Under the pieces are notes generated by a model. It worked only from the letters and a program-made list of their open reading frames with translations. It made no database searches and was not told where the DNA came from. Positions 18,611-43,294 of a DNA stretch of 64,000 nt are shown piece after piece. The translations under genes and the position numbers were made by a program. The stretch spans positions 1-64,000 of the forward strand of contig JAAZMM010000003.1 in assembly GCA_012798805.1 (NCBI GenBank). Reading direction: 5' to 3'. The first letter of the stretch is position 1, and each line of letters starts with the position of its first letter. The DNA is from Bacteroidales bacterium (lineage in GTDB: Bacteria; Bacteroidota; Bacteroidia; Bacteroidales; UBA932).

Positions 18611-19120
18611 ATGAAAAAAGTAATAGTGGTAACCGGTGGTGAGCGTTCCGGAAAGAGTTCGTATGCACAAAAGTTAGCATTAGAGTTCTCTCCAAACCCC
18701 GTTTATCTGGCAACGGCCAGGATTTGGGATGAAGAATTTAACCAACGGGTTATCCGTCATCAGCAGGAAAGGGGGGATGAGTGGAGCAATATCGAGGAAG
18801 AAAAGGAGCTGAGCAGACATCAGTTAGGCGGTAGGGTTATAGTGATGGACTGTGTCACTTTATGGTGTACAAATTGGTTTTACGACTTAAATTCCGATGT
18901 AGATAAATGTTTGGCTGAAATGAAGTCGGAATTTGATCGTTTTACATCTCAAGATGCCGTGTTTATCTTCGTGACCAATGAGATAGGTATGGGAGGCACT
19001 TCGGAAAATGAGCTGCAACGTAAGTTCGTGAACTTACAGGGTTGGATCAATCAATATATTGCAGCTCAGGCAGATGAGGTATTTCTAATGGTGTCGGGCA
19101 TTCCACTCAAAATCAAGTAA
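18611..19120 (+). CDS. cobU: Adenosylcobinamide kinase / adenosylcobinamide-phosphate guanylyltransferase
   Basis: VTGGERSGKSSYAQKLA, VMDCVTLWCTNW, VTNEIGMGGTSENELQRKFVN. Confidence 0.95.
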   Translation: MKKVIVVTGGERSGKSSYAQKLALEFSPNPVYLATARIWDEEFNQRVIRHQQERGDEWSNIEEEKELSRHQLGGRVIVMDCVTLWCTNWFYDLNSDVDKCLAEMKSEFDRFTSQDAVFIFVTNEIGMGGTSENELQRKFVNLQGWINQYIAAQADEVFLMVSGIPLKIK

Positions 19121-19124
19121 GAAC

Positions 19125-20336
19125 ATGAAATACATTATTGTTCTTTGTGACGGTATGTCGGATAGGCCAATAAAGTCTCTGAATAACCAAACTTTGTTGC
19201 AATACGCAAGGACTCCCAATATGGACCTGTTGGCAAGCCTGGGGCGTACCGGGCAGCTTTTGACAATTCCTGCAGGTTTTGACCCCGGCAGTGAAGTGGC
19301 CAATATATCCATTTTGGGATATGATTTGTCGGATATCCACGAAGGGAGGGCGGCATTTGAAGCGGTTGGTAGTGGAGTGGAGTTACAAAATGAGGATTTG
19401 GTGTTGAGGTGTAATTTGATCAATATTGAAGGCGATTTTTTGAATAATCATACAGCCGGATATATCACAACTGAGGAGGCGGAGGTTTTGATAACCTATC
19501 TGCAAGAACATTTAGGCAACGATCGGATCCGGTTTTATAGCGGAAAACAATTTCGTCACCTGGTTGTGATCAAAAAGGGTGACAAACGAGTGGAATGTAC
19601 CCCTCCTCATGAGATTCCATTACGACCATACTCTAATTACCTCTCAAAAGCGATAACGATTGAAGCAAAGGAAACCGCCTCTTTGATCAATGACTTAATG
19701 AGCAAGTCACAAAAATTATTGGCAGACCATCCCATTAATTACGATCGTGTAAGCAAAGGGAAAGTGCCTGCCAATGCTATTTGGCTCTGGAGTCCAAGTC
19801 ATCGCGCAAAGATTAAACCACTATCGGAAATCTACCCTGTGGTCCAAAAAGGTTCTGTTATTTCTGCCACGGATTTGATAAAAGGTATAGGTGTTTGTGC
19901 CGGACTTCACTCCATCAAAGTAGAGGGAGCAACGGGCTTATATGATACTAATTATAAAAATAAATTAGATGCCGCACTCGATGCATTAGTGAGTGATGAT
20001 TTTGTCTATTTGCATATTGAGGCCTGTGATGAGGCCGGCCATGCAGGAGATGCTAAGACGAAACTGCTTTCCATTGAGAATATTGATAAACAGATAGTAG
20101 GTCCTCTTTATGAGGCTTTAAAGAGTTGGGAAACACCCGTATCAATAGCTATTCTTCCGGACCATTCGACCCCTTGCGAGACTCGCACCCATACATCAGA
20201 TCCGGTCCCATTTTTGATTTATTATCCCGGCATTGTTCCTGATAATGTTCAGAAGTTTGATGAGCTGGAGTGTGCAAAGGGAAGTTATGGCCTGCTGAAA
20301 GGAAATCAATTTATGAATGAATTTTTGAGATTATAA
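19125..20336 (+). CDS. Cofactor-independent phosphoglycerate mutase-like protein (ApgM / ThrB2-like)
   Basis: [37 protein letters not shown]...[13 protein letters not shown]...[13 protein letters not shown]...[24 protein letters not shown]. Confidence 0.9.
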
Positions 20337-20337
20337 T

Positions 20338-21375
20338 ATGAGAAAGTTTGCTATTTCCAAGCCTGATAAAAAAATATATGAGGTATTAGTCGATAAAATC
20401 AACAATCTTACAAAACCGAAAGGCTCGTTGGGTCATTTGGAAGAGCTGGCTCTTCAAATCGGGATGATTCAACAAACTTTATCACCTTCGCTCAAGCACC
20501 CTCAAAATATTCTTTTTGCTGCAGACCATGGAATTGTGGAAGAGGGGGTAACTCTTTCACCCAAAGAGGTAACATGGCAGCAATTGATCAATTTTACTCG
20601 GGGTGGCGGTGGAGTGAACCTTTTTTGCAGACAGCACAACTTTACTTTAAAACTTGTAGATGCGGGTGTTGACTATGAGTTGCCTTACGAAAAGGGCATC
20701 ATCAATATGAAGGTTCGAAGGGGAACCCGTAACTATCTCTATGAAGCAGCAATGACGGAGGAGGAAATGGAACTTTGTGTTGAACGGGGTTCGGCGATTG
20801 TAAGGCAGTGTTATGAGGAAGGAAGCAACATCCTCAGTTTCGGGGAGATGGGGGTTGGCAACACCTCTTCTTCCTCTATCTGGATGCATTGTTTTACCGC
20901 TATTCCTTTGGATAAATGTGTGGGGCCCGGTGCCGGATTAAATGATGAGGGCATAATGCATAAGTTGAAGATTTTGAAAAAATCTTTGGAAAACTACAAG
21001 GGAAATGGTGCACCACTTGATATTATTCGCTATTTTGGCGGTCTGGAAATGGTGATGGCCATTGGTGCGATGCTACAGGCAGCAGAACTTAAAATGATTA
21101 TACTTGTAGATGGCTTTATTATGACCAATTCTATTTTGGCAGCAAGTAAACTCTATCCCGATGTGCTGGATTATGCCATATTCGGTCATTGCGGCGATGA
21201 GTCGGGGCATAAGTTGCTGCTTGAAGCAATGAATGCAAAACCGTTATTGGATTTGGGGTTGCGTCTGGGAGAAGGGACGGGAGCCATTTGTGCCTATCCT
21301 ATTGTGGATTCGGCTGTTAGAATGATAAACGAAATGGAGACTTTTCAAAAAGCTTCCATTACAAAATATTTTTAA
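20338..21375 (+). CDS. cobT: Nicotinate-nucleotide--dimethylbenzimidazole phosphoribosyltransferase
   Basis: [64 protein letters not shown]. Confidence 0.97.
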
Positions 21376-21379
21376 AACC

Positions 21380-22123
21380 ATGAATTTGCTGGCTGCCTTC
21401 ATTTTCTTTACGCGGCTTCCATTTTGGAGGATCAAGGATGTTCCTTCCGATTCTTTCAAGTATGTGGTTCCCTATTGGCCACTGGTGGGTTGGTTGACGG
21501 GTGGGCTTATGGCTTTGACTCTTTGGTTGTGCGCTCATATTCTGCCTGTCACAGTGGCCTGGATAGTAGCTATAGTTGTCCGTTTGTTGTTGACCGGAGC
21601 TTTGCATGAAGATGGTCTGGCAGATTTTTTAGATGGTTTCGGCGGGGGAGCAACGCGTGAGAAGGTGCTTTCAATTATGAAAGATTCGCATATTGGGACC
21701 TATGGTGTGATCGGATTGATTGTTTATTATTTGTTGCTGATGCAGATGACTGTTTTGCCGTTGGAGATACTTTGTCTGTTGGTGCTGTGTGGCGATTGTT
21801 GGGCAAAATTTGTAGCTTCTCAGATAACAAATCTATTGCCTTATGCGCGAAAAGAGGAGGATAGCAAATCTAAAGTGGTATATAGTCGTATGCGTATATG
21901 GGAAATATGCATTGCTCTCGTGGCCGGGGTGTTGCCGGCAATCCTTTTACTCCCTATGCGTTTTTGGATAGCACTCTTATTTCCGGTTCCGGTCCTCCTG
22001 TTGCTTTATTTTCTGATGAAGCGGAAAATAGGTGGCTATACCGGCGACTGCTGCGGAGCACTATTTATGTTGTGTGAATTATCATTTTATATAGGAGGTT
22101 TGATCATATGGAAGTTCTATTAA
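21380..22123 (+). CDS. cobS: Adenosylcobinamide-GDP ribazoletransferase
   Basis: ALHEDGLADFLDGFGGGATREKVLSIMKDSHIGTYGVIGL. Confidence 0.97.
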   Translation: MNLLAAFIFFTRLPFWRIKDVPSDSFKYVVPYWPLVGWLTGGLMALTLWLCAHILPVTVAWIVAIVVRLLLTGALHEDGLADFLDGFGGGATREKVLSIMKDSHIGTYGVIGLIVYYLLLMQMTVLPLEILCLLVLCGDCWAKFVASQITNLLPYARKEEDSKSKVVYSRMRIWEICIALVAGVLPAILLLPMRFWIALLFPVPVLLLLYFLMKRKIGGYTGDCCGALFMLCELSFYIGGLIIWKFY

Positions 22124-22638
22124 TTCGTCATACTGCCGTAGATGTGGCTCCGGGTATCTGTTATGGACAGACGGATGTTCCATTAAAGTCCACTTTCGAG
22201 CAAGAAGCGGAAGTTGTAAAAGGTGCGTTGTCATCCTATGAGCCATTTGACGCAGTCTATACAAGTCCGTTGTCCCGTTGTATGCATCTTGCTGTTTATT
22301 GCGGTTATCCGGATGCAATACGAGAGAACCGTATTATGGAAATTAATTTTGGTGAATGGGAAATGCAGCCTTATGCCGAGATTAAAGATCCCCGTTTGCA
22401 GGAATGGTACGATGATCATCTGAATGTGGCGGCCACGGGTGGAGAGTCTTTTGTGATATTGTACGAACGTGTGGCCAGTTTTCTGGAGGAACTTAAAACC
22501 AAACCATATTCCAAAGTGGCTCTGTTTTGTCATGGTGGCTCCATACTCTGTGCGCAAGTTTATGCAAAAACCATTTCTGTTGAAGAGGCATTTAACTCTT
22601 TAACACCGTATGGAGGCATTGTCCGCATCAATATTTAA
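22108..22638 (+). CDS. cobC: Alpha-ribazole phosphatase, histidine phosphatase family
   Basis: VLLIRHTAVDVAPGICYGQTDVPL, YTSPLSRC, NFGEWE, LFCHGGSI. Confidence 0.93.
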   Translation: MEVLLIRHTAVDVAPGICYGQTDVPLKSTFEQEAEVVKGALSSYEPFDAVYTSPLSRCMHLAVYCGYPDAIRENRIMEINFGEWEMQPYAEIKDPRLQEWYDDHLNVAATGGESFVILYERVASFLEELKTKPYSKVALFCHGGSILCAQVYAKTISVEEAFNSLTPYGGIVRINI

Positions 22639-23573
22639 TAGGGGAGCAAGAAACTTAACGAGAGTACCATTGCCATCATTACCAACTCTGTCATTCGATT
22701 AATCCGGATGGCCCTTTCCATATCCTTTGTTGTAAGCAGACGATCATTGTAGCCGATAAATGGCTTCCATACCTCTTCTCCAAAATAGTTGTGAGGACCA
22801 CCGAAACGACAATTCAGGATCCCTGCCAAAGCAGCTTCGGGGTAACCGGCATTCGGACTGGTGTGTTGTTTGCCCTCTTTTCTGACAAACGAAAAGAGAG
22901 AAAACTTACCGGATACCAGTACCATCAAAAAAGCAGTAAGACGAGCCGGCAGATAGTTGACAACATCGTCCAGTCGCGCAGCGAAGCGGCCGAAATCCTT
23001 ATAGCGTTCATTGCGATAGCCAATCATGGAGTCGAGTGTATTGATCATCTTGTAGGCCATCATACCTGGAACACCCGCCAACAAATACCAAAAGAGTGGT
23101 GCTATTACACCGTCACTGAGATTTTCAGAAAGTGTTTCAAGGGCGGCACTTCTTATCTCTTGTGCCGACATTTCCGAAGTGTCGCGTCCAACTATACGTG
23201 CAACTTGTCGCCTTCCTTCCGGTAGTGATTGCTCTACAATAAGAAAGACTTTACGGACCTCCCTAATCAAAGTGGTTCCTGCCAAACAGTAGAATGCGAA
23301 TAAAGCATTTAAGAGAATTAAAAGCAGGGGAGAAAAATTTGCTATAAGCTTTTGCAGTCCCAGCATAAGGAAGAAAATGCCGGCTACCAGCAATAAAGTC
23401 AAAATCATCCCTTTCAAAAAGCGCCTGTTCCCTCTATTGAAAGCCTTTTCCCCGGCATCAATCATCTTGCCGAAGCCTACAACCGGATGTGGCAACGAAA
23501 CAGGGTCACCGAATAGCAGGTCAAGTCCCCAGGCTATTAAAAGGCTGATGGATTTTATCATAAAACTCCTCAA
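22635..23573 (-). CDS. cbiB: Adenosylcobinamide-phosphate synthase
   Basis: LDLLFGDPVSLPHPVVGFGKMI, IVGRDTSEMSAQEIRSAALETLSENLSDGVIAPLFWY, NTLDSMIGYRNERYKDFGRFAARLDDVVNYLPARL. Confidence 0.97.
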   Translation of the reverse strand: MRSFMIKSISLLIAWGLDLLFGDPVSLPHPVVGFGKMIDAGEKAFNRGNRRFLKGMILTLLLVAGIFFLMLGLQKLIANFSPLLLILLNALFAFYCLAGTTLIREVRKVFLIVEQSLPEGRRQVARIVGRDTSEMSAQEIRSAALETLSENLSDGVIAPLFWYLLAGVPGMMAYKMINTLDSMIGYRNERYKDFGRFAARLDDVVNYLPARLTAFLMVLVSGKFSLFSFVRKEGKQHTSPNAGYPEAALAGILNCRFGGPHNYFGEEVWKPFIGYNDRLLTTKDMERAIRINRMTELVMMAMVLSLSFLLPY

Positions 23574-24598
23574 TTATCAATCCATTGGGAAATTGCTGCC
23601 ACCAATAGGTCATTTTCCTTCGGCGTTTGTGTTGCAATACGGAAAAAACGCTCATCCAACCCTTCGAAGTTGGATGCATCCCTTATAAGTATCTCATGCG
23701 TTTTTACCAGGTAATCCTTTAATTCCGAGGCTTTTCCCTCGCGAAGTGAAGCCAGCATGAAATGAGTTTGTGTTTCCAATACTTCAATCCCCAAGCTTTT
23801 AAGGTTGGAGCTCAATCGTTTGGTTTCTTCCAGGTAGGCCTGTAAATCTATTTGTGCTTCCTGAGGGTTATCCAGAAGATAGAGGCCCGCCTGTATTGCA
23901 AGTTGATTGACTGACCATGGCATACGGTGGTTACGCAGTCGTTGTAACAGAGCAGCCTTTCCCGTAATATATCCCAATCGTAATCCCGGAATTGCATATC
24001 GCTTAGTCATGGAGTGAAGCAAAAGCAGATTCGGAAAACTTGCAGCTTCTTTAGCACTGAATGTCTTAGCTAAAGTGAAAAACTCGTAGGATTGATCTAT
24101 GATGAAACAGACTTTAGGATTGTGCTCAATTACCATTTGGAGATGATCAATATCATAAACCTTTCCGGTAGGATTGTTGGGATTACAGAGCCAAAGGGTC
24201 TGAATTTCCTTCGGCAACAAATATGCCTCTTTCTTATCAGGCAGACTAAAAATAGAGCTTACATTGTGTTCATGTATAAGACAAGCATCGGCATATTCGC
24301 TAAATGTAGGCTGGAGAATAGCCGTGTCAGCTCCACGAAAAGCCTGAGCTATCAGGTATATAGCCTCCGTTGCACCGTTTGTTACACATACTTCTTTGCT
24401 GTTCAGGTCTTTTGTGATTGCCAATTTTGCTTCCAATGAATAGGGCTCCGGCTCGGGATAACTTCCTATCTCATTCATACATTTGCACAAGTGCGTTTTC
24501 AGTCCCTCAATGTTTACCTTATTATAAACATTGGAGCTGAAGTTGGCTTTCATCTTCTTGCCATATTTATAGGCATCATCACCGTGTCCTTTAATCAT
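23570..24598 (-). CDS. cobD: Threonine-phosphate decarboxylase / aminotransferase class I-II (CobD type)
   Basis: HGDDAYKYG, NFSSNVY, CVTNGATEAIYLIAQ, LCNPNNPTGKVYD, SMTKRYAIPGLRLGYITG. Confidence 0.88.
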   Translation of the reverse strand: MIKGHGDDAYKYGKKMKANFSSNVYNKVNIEGLKTHLCKCMNEIGSYPEPEPYSLEAKLAITKDLNSKEVCVTNGATEAIYLIAQAFRGADTAILQPTFSEYADACLIHEHNVSSIFSLPDKKEAYLLPKEIQTLWLCNPNNPTGKVYDIDHLQMVIEHNPKVCFIIDQSYEFFTLAKTFSAKEAASFPNLLLLHSMTKRYAIPGLRLGYITGKAALLQRLRNHRMPWSVNQLAIQAGLYLLDNPQEAQIDLQAYLEETKRLSSNLKSLGIEVLETQTHFMLASLREGKASELKDYLVKTHEILIRDASNFEGLDERFFRIATQTPKENDLLVAAISQWIDN

Positions 24599-25535
24599 AC
24601 TCTTTCGTCAGTATTTCGTAAACCAGCGTCATATCGATATGGTTTCGCACCAGTTCTGCCAGCTTGTCGTATTGTTCTTCTTTAAATTGATGATAATCAA
24701 ATGTACTATTTTCTTCGCTCCTATTGAGATGCTGCTTCAACAAAACCTCAGCTACATTGATTTCACCTTTTTTTGCCAGAGAGGATTTGGTAGCGAGGGA
24801 AGCAGAGTCCTCTTCCTCAATATATATATCTTTAAAATAAGGAACAACTCCCAGTACCGGTATGTGGCAAAGCTCTTCTAATATCTTTATGCCCGATTCG
24901 AATAGACGGATATCGCCTCTGAACTTGTTGATGATAATACCTTTAACCCGCTTTCTTTCTTCGGGCTTCAACAGCATCAGCGAGCCGTAAATGCTCGCAA
25001 ATACCCCTCCTCTGTCTATATCACCCACCAATATCACATCCGCACTGGCGTGCATAGCCATAGGCATATTTACAATATCGGTGTCGCGCAAATTTATTTC
25101 AGCAAGGCTTCCGGCTCCCTCCATTACGATAGGGTTAAATCTCTGTGAAAGGCGGTCGAAAGCGGCATATACCTCTTTTCGTAACTCTTCGCGGCCCTCT
25201 TTGCGGAAATAATCATAGGCGTCCTTTTTTCCGATAGGCACTCCGTTAAGCACCACTTGAGAAGTACGTTCACCAAATGGCTTCAATAACACCGGATTCA
25301 TATCCGTATGGCAGGGAATACTTGCCGCTTCGGCTTGAACGGCTTGTGCCCGTGCCATTTCCAGACCTTCAGGTGTGGTAAAGGAGTTTAGAGACATATT
25401 TTGCGCCTTAAACGGAGCGGGATTGTAACCATCCTGCTTGAAAATACGACAAAAAGCAGTCGCAATGATGCTTTTCCCAACATCGCTCCCCGTTCCTGCG
25501 AGCATGATCGGATGAAGTTTTTTGCGTTTCTTCAT
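24591..25535 (-). CDS. cobQ: Cobyric acid synthase CobQ/CbiP, apparently lacking the GATase1 domain
   Basis: IMLAGTGSDVGKSIIATAFCRIFKQDGYNPAPFKAQNMSLNSF...DIDRGGVFASIYGSLMLL...; only 314 aa, with a canonical C-terminal tail FDYHQFKEEQYDKLAELVRNHIDMTLVYEIL but no intervening amidotransferase. Confidence 0.88.
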   Translation of the reverse strand: MKKRKKLHPIMLAGTGSDVGKSIIATAFCRIFKQDGYNPAPFKAQNMSLNSFTTPEGLEMARAQAVQAEAASIPCHTDMNPVLLKPFGERTSQVVLNGVPIGKKDAYDYFRKEGREELRKEVYAAFDRLSQRFNPIVMEGAGSLAEINLRDTDIVNMPMAMHASADVILVGDIDRGGVFASIYGSLMLLKPEERKRVKGIIINKFRGDIRLFESGIKILEELCHIPVLGVVPYFKDIYIEEEDSASLATKSSLAKKGEINVAEVLLKQHLNRSEENSTFDYHQFKEEQYDKLAELVRNHIDMTLVYEILTKEYD

Positions 25536-26101
25536 TTTTTGCGCTTATATGAAAAGTTATGCCATTTCTCTTCCCCCCTGTTTTGTTGCCACATTTCAAA
25601 ACGAGCCATAACAAAAAATAAATCCGAAATACGATTCATGAAGCGTAAGATAAGCTGTGGCACTTCGTCCTGCTTATTAAGAGTCCATAAACGGCGTTCT
25701 GCCCTGCGGGCTACTGCACGTGCAAATTGCAGATGGGCTGCCAAAGGAGTTCCACCTGGTAATACGAAATAATCATTTTCTTCCATTTGAGCAGTAAGTT
25801 CGTCCATCATTTTTTCACAAAACTCCACCAAATCGGGGGGTAATATATTGGGATTTTGTGCTCGTATGGCAGAAGGGGTTGCCACATGACTCATAACGAT
25901 CATTATATTACGCTGAATGGTAAAAAGGGAAGATTGCCATTCGTGCTCAGGAGGCAAGATAGAACGTATTATACCGATGAGGGTATTTAGTTCGTCAATG
26001 CAACCGTTGGCTTCTATGCGAATATCATCTTTGGGGACGCGCTCTCCTCCATGAATGCGTGTCATACCCTTGTCGCCACTGCGTGTATATATACGTCTCA
26101 T
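25532..26101 (-). CDS. Cob(I)yrinic acid a,c-diamide adenosyltransferase, PduO type
   Basis: MRRIYTRSGDKGMTRIHGGERVPKDDIRIEANGCIDELNTLIG, FVLPGGTPLAAHLQFARAVARRAERRLW. Confidence 0.95.
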   Translation of the reverse strand: MRRIYTRSGDKGMTRIHGGERVPKDDIRIEANGCIDELNTLIGIIRSILPPEHEWQSSLFTIQRNIMIVMSHVATPSAIRAQNPNILPPDLVEFCEKMMDELTAQMEENDYFVLPGGTPLAAHLQFARAVARRAERRLWTLNKQDEVPQLILRFMNRISDLFFVMARFEMWQQNRGEEKWHNFSYKRKK

Positions 26102-32496: not shown

Positions 32497-32599
32497 AACC
32501 TTCAAAAGGATCTTCTCAAACTCATCAGATGGTGACTAAGCCATTAAACGACAAATTTAGTTTAATGAGGATATATTCTTAATTCTAAAAAACATTTCT

Positions 32600-32607
32600 T
32601 ACTTTTG
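32600..32607 (+). promoter_or_regulatory. Bacteroidetes-type -7 element (TACTTTTG) upstream of the riboswitch
   Basis: Matches TAnnTTTG immediately 5' of the cobalamin riboswitch. Confidence 0.55.
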
Positions 32608-32611
32608 CGCC

Positions 32612-32787
32612 GAATTGGTGTTCGTTTCCTCAATCGGAGGATTCGGCTAAAAGGGAATCAGGTGAAAATCCTGAGCAGACACCGCTGCTGTAAGCTCCGT
32701 GTAATGTCCTTGAAAACCTAAGCCACTGTTCTACAAGAATGGGAAGGCATCAAGGATGGAGCAAGCCAGAAGACCTACCAATTTTGT
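32612..32787 (+). promoter_or_regulatory. Cobalamin riboswitch
   Basis: GGGAATCAGGTGAAAATCCTGAGCAGACACCGCTGCTGTAAG, B12 box AAGCCACTG, GGGAAGGC, AGCCAGAAGACCTACC. Confidence 0.96.
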
Positions 32788-32929
32788 GAGTTTAAAGGCT
32801 TTCGGGTAATAAGAGCCGTGAACATACAGCGATGAATTCCTAATTTAAATAGAATACAAGGGATTTCGTCTTCTATGATGTTCTATCCTATTTGTCCCAA
32901 GGCCGTTGAATGACAACTTAAGCGATAGA

Positions 32930-43142: not shown

Positions 43143-43147
43143 AAAAA

Positions 43148-43244
43148 GGGTAAGCTTGATATATCGCACCGCTACAACCATCTACCCTTGCTGCCTTCCG
43201 ACCCTGGGGGAGTTCAATGGGAGCTGGTCGTATATGACTTACCC
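43148..43244 (-). ncRNA. ffs: Small bacterial signal recognition particle RNA
   Basis: Reverse strand GGGTAAGTCATATACGACCAGCTCCCATTGAACTCCCCCAGGGTCGGAAGGCAGCAAGGGTAG...CTTACCC, poly-T downstream. Confidence 0.95.
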
Positions 43245-43294
43245 AACTACAAAATTAGCTATATTTTCTTTAATAAACAATTTTTTGACTCTCA

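Follow-up and report, generated by a model that had tools for sequence, protein, structure and literature searches.

A 403-residue protein encoded inside the cob operon of a Bacteroidales MAG is best read as a phosphotransferase that would phosphorylate L-threonine for CobD, a prediction from sequence to which we assign a probability of roughly 60%. Its gene lies in a window of 64,000 nucleotides (contig JAAZMM010000003.1, positions 1 to 64,000; the MAG holding the window is termed G000), and the surrounding features are collected in Table 1. The tight placement described in the initial annotation is borne out, with gaps of 4 bp after the end of cobU (19120) and 1 bp before the start of cobT (20338). 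Synthesis of L-threonine-O-3-phosphate is favored because it fits this neighborhood, a missing step of the pathway, and superfamily chemistry directed at a hydroxyl amino acid that resembles homoserine.

Table 1. The ApgM/ThrB2-like gene and the cob genes around it (window coordinates)
Feature	Position	Strand	Product and evidence
cobU	18611..19120	+	Adenosylcobinamide kinase/guanylyltransferase, 169 aa; PF02283 179 bits; NF004469 157 bits, just below cut-off 161
ApgM/ThrB2-like gene	19125-20336	+	403 aa, ATG start, intact ORF; predicted L-threonine phosphotransferase (cbiU-like)
cobT	20338..21375	+	345 aa; TIGR03160 410 bits, above cut-off
cobS	21380..22123	+	247 aa; TIGR00317 114 bits, above cut-off; PF02654
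cobC	22108..22638	+	Alpha-ribazole phosphatase, 176 aa; TIGR03162 171 bits, cut-off 162.9; supplies phosphatase step
cbiB	22635..23573	-	Aminopropanol phosphate attachment, 312 aa; TIGR00380 234 bits, above cut-off
cobD	23570..24598	-	L-threonine-phosphate decarboxylase, 342 aa; TIGR01140 best match, 266 bits, slightly below cut-off 290.55; PF00155 only
cbiP	24591..25535	-	Cobyric acid synthase, 314 aa, without C-terminal glutaminase part; NF001989 and TIGR00313 match N-terminal half only
cobA/cobO-type	25532..26101	-	Corrinoid adenosyltransferase, 189 aa; ORF, putative name from reading sequence; 96% in G014

With respect to family, the protein scores 508.4 bits against the NCBIfam profile TIGR02535 ('proposed homoserine kinase'; curated cut-off 446.3 bits), spanning profile positions 1-396 of 397, as well as 511.7 bits against NF003242 (cut-off 426) and 481 bits against TIGR00306 (apgM). 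Together with the ORF, these scores agree with its earlier assignment as an intact member of the ApgM group. The Pfam scan returned PF10143 and PF01676 only, and the GHMP kinase domain PF00288 is absent. Residues D9, S56, D302, H306, D346, H347 and H356 are invariant in a 16-sequence alignment (A1), and from iPGM numbering we take them to be the metal and phosphoserine positions. The zinc ligand D9 of BT2402 agrees with this predicted ligand set (PMC9765024). The cob-linked copy thus keeps all seven of the predicted two-metal and phosphoserine ligands of the alkaline-phosphatase superfamily. An AlphaFold2 model (mean pLDDT 94) finds its top PDB match in the archaeal ApgM 2zkt (TM 0.83), and the solved archaeal ApgM structures (2zkt, 3kd8, 3idd) have the fold and the metal and phosphoserine motifs in common with the protein at ~27-32% identity.

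The CobD-like gene reported in the initial annotation is likewise recovered; its best match is TIGR01140, although below the cut-off, and its product is a plain aminotransferase-fold protein with no added C-terminal domain. The remainder of the operon bears on the best-surviving alternative, in which the protein would be another nucleotide-loop enzyme, either a phosphatase or phosphotransferase acting on alpha-ribazole-5'-phosphate or adenosylcobalamin-5'-phosphate, or a kinase of free aminopropanol. The alkaline-phosphatase superfamily does include phosphatases, and the gene adjoins cobT and cobS, the makers of the ribazole moiety. However, CobC is encoded in the same operon and scores above its curated cut-off, so the protein is not needed as a ribazole phosphatase, and with CobD present free aminopropanol is not an expected intermediate. 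We regard this alternative as unlikely.

Regarding the supply of threonine phosphate, the statement in the initial annotation that no PduX is visible holds for the genome as recovered. The GHMP kinases of G000 number just two, galactokinase and IspE, and a GHMP kinase search found no PduX, an absence limited by MAG completeness. G000 thus combines CobD, slightly below the TIGR01140 cut-off, with an apparent lack of PduX in an incomplete MAG, and its TIGR02535 gene sits inside a nucleotide-loop cob operon (window 18611-22638), as is also seen in a sister-species MAG of the same genus (G014). Salmonella PduX is an L-threonine kinase and would yield the same product as that predicted here, whereas it is an ATP-dependent GHMP kinase of unrelated fold.

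The absence of PduX is nonetheless weak evidence, because neither PduX nor TIGR02535 is present in many cob+ relatives. G007, G011 and G085, for example, are congeners or relatives that carry cobT and cbiB with two GHMP kinases of galactokinase/IspE size and no TIGR02535 protein, and most verified cobamide producers have no pduX in their genomes (PMC6461909). Provided that such relatives produce aminopropanol cobamides, they must obtain threonine phosphate from another source, one that need not have been replaced in G000. The gene in the cob operon is therefore a solution or addition specific to one lineage and does not account for the Bacteroidales as a whole. In congeners, GHMP kinases of ~350 aa were considered as possible PduX proteins, and the two that were scanned are HddA-like heptose kinases. 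No replacement threonine kinase was found among the recurrent neighbors of cobT and cbiB scanned in cob+ congeners (FecR, an ECF sigma factor, CbiK, a PLD-type cardiolipin synthase, and thioredoxin-like, nucleoside-hydrolase-like and MotA/ExbB proteins). As a separate observation, several cob+ relatives of the same genus and family (loci L138-L150 and L160-L178) encode CobD, CbiB and CobT without PduX or TIGR02535.

The operon could also be served by L-serine, phosphorylated instead of or besides L-threonine, with CobD then giving ethanolamine phosphate and the pathway norcobamides, for which the norcobamide pathway of Sulfurospirillum is the model. A CobD-type enzyme would feed CbiB likewise, but no sequence feature of the protein indicates serine, and we consider this version improbable.

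The gene is not peculiar to a single assembly. In G014 (contig JAAYDZ010000065.1, a Bacteroidales MAG), the order cobU-X-cobT-cobS-cobC recurs with gaps that are again 4 and 1 bp, and the arrangement is therefore neither an assembly accident nor chance. The two cob-linked proteins are 90% identical, and comparison of their genes gives dS 0.30, dN 0.051 and dN/dS 0.17, as against dN/dS values of 0.05-0.14 for the neighboring genes; the gene is thus under purifying selection, somewhat looser than that on its neighbors. In the other cob+ congeners examined in which both were found together, cobU directly adjoins cobT, from which it follows that the gene is an insertion, one that is fixed in one lineage of the genus. 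Within the genus set, cobT occurs in 24 of 40 genomes and TIGR02535 above the cut-off in two (G000 and G014), each of which has a single such match, the cob-linked protein.

These data also bear on two other possible roles, that of a moonlighting or backup phosphoglycerate mutase in glycolysis and that of a neutral passenger in the operon. The ApgM fold, together with best solved-structure matches that are archaeal phosphoglycerate mutases, speaks for a mutase. G000 nonetheless encodes a full-length GpmI for that job (contig C10; TIGR01307 672 bits), so the 403-aa protein is not needed for glycolysis, nor is it the sole or main phosphoglycerate mutase of the genome, and the concern of the initial annotation that the genome might hold no other such enzyme is answered accordingly. 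A passenger, for its part, is difficult to reconcile with purifying selection and an identical tight position in two species. Taken together, these two versions seem to us as improbable as the use of serine.

The neighborhood survey and phylogeny proposed in the initial annotation place the gene among homoserine kinase candidates by descent and apart from them by location. In Bacteroidota, thrA and/or thrC adjoin 97 of the 103 related loci examined (a few loci being counted twice), four lie beside neither thrA/thrC nor cob genes, and two are cob-linked, both on the G014 contig; no cob-linked locus was found among these 103 outside the species pair. In a sample of 396 genomes from the phylum, 8 have TIGR02535 matches and 125 have cobT, and by coordinates the two lie side by side nowhere except in the window. 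Plasmid records held no cob-linked copy among the matches listed, and a scan of genome contigs for relatives gave only Bacteroidales-type loci. The 403-aa gene thus has cobU and cobT as neighbors in place of the thrA/thrC surroundings of a homoserine kinase.

The tree groups the cob-linked pair with the thr-operon ThrB2 proteins of Bacteroidaceae, as sister or nested (98/99 support), and keeps it apart from the ThrB2 proteins of its own family; the stem leading to the pair measures 1.44 changes per site, compared with a median of 0.28 for end branches. AU tests rejected a grouping with the ThrB2 copy of genome G061 (p 0.001) but did not reject pairing with that of G052 (p 0.16), a position sister to Bacteroidaceae (p 0.38; nested and sister placements were not separated) or a branching point outside the combined Bacteroidaceae and Tannerellaceae (p 0.11). 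These relationships point to derivation of the cob-linked gene from a thr-operon ThrB2 followed by rapid divergence; transfer from Bacteroidaceae, the direction of which we infer, would be the likeliest route.

This divergence extends to positions that are otherwise nearly fixed. Across the 160 columns conserved at ≥95% in the other 100 sequences, both cob copies differ at 25, as compared with a median of 0 for other single sequences (also 0 for thr-linked copies) and highest values of 14 and 54, the latter belonging to one very distant protein (37% identity) present at two loci of one genome. Three of the changes, A12S, E307A and P348S, are no more than three residues away from a predicted metal ligand; other substitutions include G76A, S82G, V249T and Y258C. 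Such substitutions would be compatible with a change of substrate, without identifying the new one.

Descent from ThrB2 raises the question of whether the protein is still a homoserine kinase that has merely been relocated into the cob operon, as its score above the TIGR02535 cut-off and its grouping with thr-operon ThrB2 would allow. The genomic context argues against this. Neither G000 nor G014 yielded a homoserine dehydrogenase (PF00742), a GHMP ThrB or a true threonine synthase (ThrC), the weak thrC matches being IlvA, although MAG completeness of 85% and 90% limits these absences and the homoserine kinase search covered the GHMP and TIGR02535 types. Because homoserine dehydrogenase, ThrB and ThrC were found in neither species, a homoserine kinase would have no substrate to act on and no purpose to serve; at the completeness of these MAGs, neither genome shows a homoserine supply or a threonine synthase. 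True thrC exceeds the cut-off in just 2 of 40 genus genomes, both of which carry GHMP ThrB, and the ThrB2 here is therefore not left over from a thr operon native to the genus. The initial annotation had named clustering with thr-operon ThrB2, with no other homoserine kinase in the genome, as a result that would count against its reading. This is literally what was observed, APH-type enzymes aside, but the objection loses force because homoserine dehydrogenase and threonine synthase were not found either. Homoserine-kinase and glycolytic roles are both unlikely, and a relocated homoserine kinase is to us the least probable of the readings considered. One 415-aa 'thrC' match in G000, like its G014 counterpart, proved to be a threonine ammonia-lyase. 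More broadly, threonine biosynthesis is apparently widely lost in the genus, with homoserine dehydrogenase kept in two of three congeners checked besides G014.

Returning to phosphorylation of L-threonine for CobD, we infer substrate, donor and mechanism, as well as the course of transfer between lineages, as follows. A ThrB2-type gene of a Bacteroidales thr operon (thrA-thrB2-thrC), closest to Bacteroidaceae copies, would have entered the cobU-cobT junction in a lineage that belongs to another Bacteroidales family and is apparently unable to make homoserine or threonine. The enzyme would have kept its two-metal phosphoserine chemistry while altering otherwise near-invariant residues. A phosphoryl group, perhaps from PEP or phosphoglycerate and not ATP, would pass via Ser56 to the hydroxyl of imported L-threonine. 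The resulting L-threonine-O-3-phosphate would be used by CobD, whose product CbiB would attach to adenosylcobyric acid; CobD, CbiB, CobU, CobT and CobS are all encoded in the window.

In terms of the donor, the ATP dependence assumed in the initial annotation is unsupported. The TIGRFAM curators suggest a donor such as PEP for the TIGR02535 family, and an E. coli thrB mutant was not rescued by BT2402 (PMC7311316). A ThrB2-derived phosphoserine phosphotransferase with a non-nucleotide donor such as PEP would be a threonine kinase with a new type of mechanism, an idea we advance tentatively and hold to be somewhat doubtful. The homoserine kinase activity of ThrB2 is itself not proven biochemically, which counts against our reading.

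The same function has been proposed before for a gene in the same kind of context, which supports our reading. Rupakula et al. (2015) proposed that the TIGR02535 protein Dehre_1608 of Dehalobacter restrictus is an L-threonine kinase and named its gene cbiU (PMC4285132). The cbiU gene resembles the gene in G000 in lying in a nucleotide-loop operon of a genome without pduX, and by the published description the two systems differ in host, a member of the Firmicutes there and of the Bacteroidales here. The passages on cbiU (PMC4285132) state no exclusion of the thr pathway, whereas G000 appears to be without it. We found no later experimental test of the cbiU proposal in the literature searched. 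The L-threonine kinase suggested in the initial annotation therefore stands as the best-supported reading, but it had already been put forward in 2015, and the accompanying PduX-gap argument is weak. The ThrB2/BT2402-type alternative homoserine kinases (PMC7311316, PMC9026213) belong to the same TIGR02535 family, share its catalytic ligands and are phylogenetic neighbors, the nearest named relatives being 54-63% identical to the 403-aa protein. Their genes lie in thrA-thrB2-thrC operons, whereas the present gene lies in cobU-X-cobT and its product departs from the family at the 25 near-invariant positions. New here are the Bacteroidales example, its descent from ThrB2, the substituted residues, and the apparent exclusion of a homoserine role in its host genome.

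Since the homoserine-threonine branch was not found in the genome, the locus separates one candidate for threonine phosphate synthesis from the usual homoserine role of its family. It bears on the route by which most cobamide producers, lacking PduX, form threonine phosphate, on the cbiU proposal, and on the disputed donor and mechanism of the TIGR02535 family, including the alternative homoserine kinase of Bacteroides.

Several further features of the window were observed. Relative to the 499-aa copy of G014, cbiP of G000 lacks ~185 codons in frame, a real truncation or an assembly error; the cell may thus be poorly able to make cobyric acid de novo, a point that weighs against our reading. 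A cobalamin riboswitch (RF00174, 102 bits) lies at 32599-32796 (+), past the cbi genes and downstream of the cobU operon by ~10 kb. A small Bacteroidales SRP RNA (RF04183) at 43144-43251 (-) fits the Bacteroidales origin of the window.
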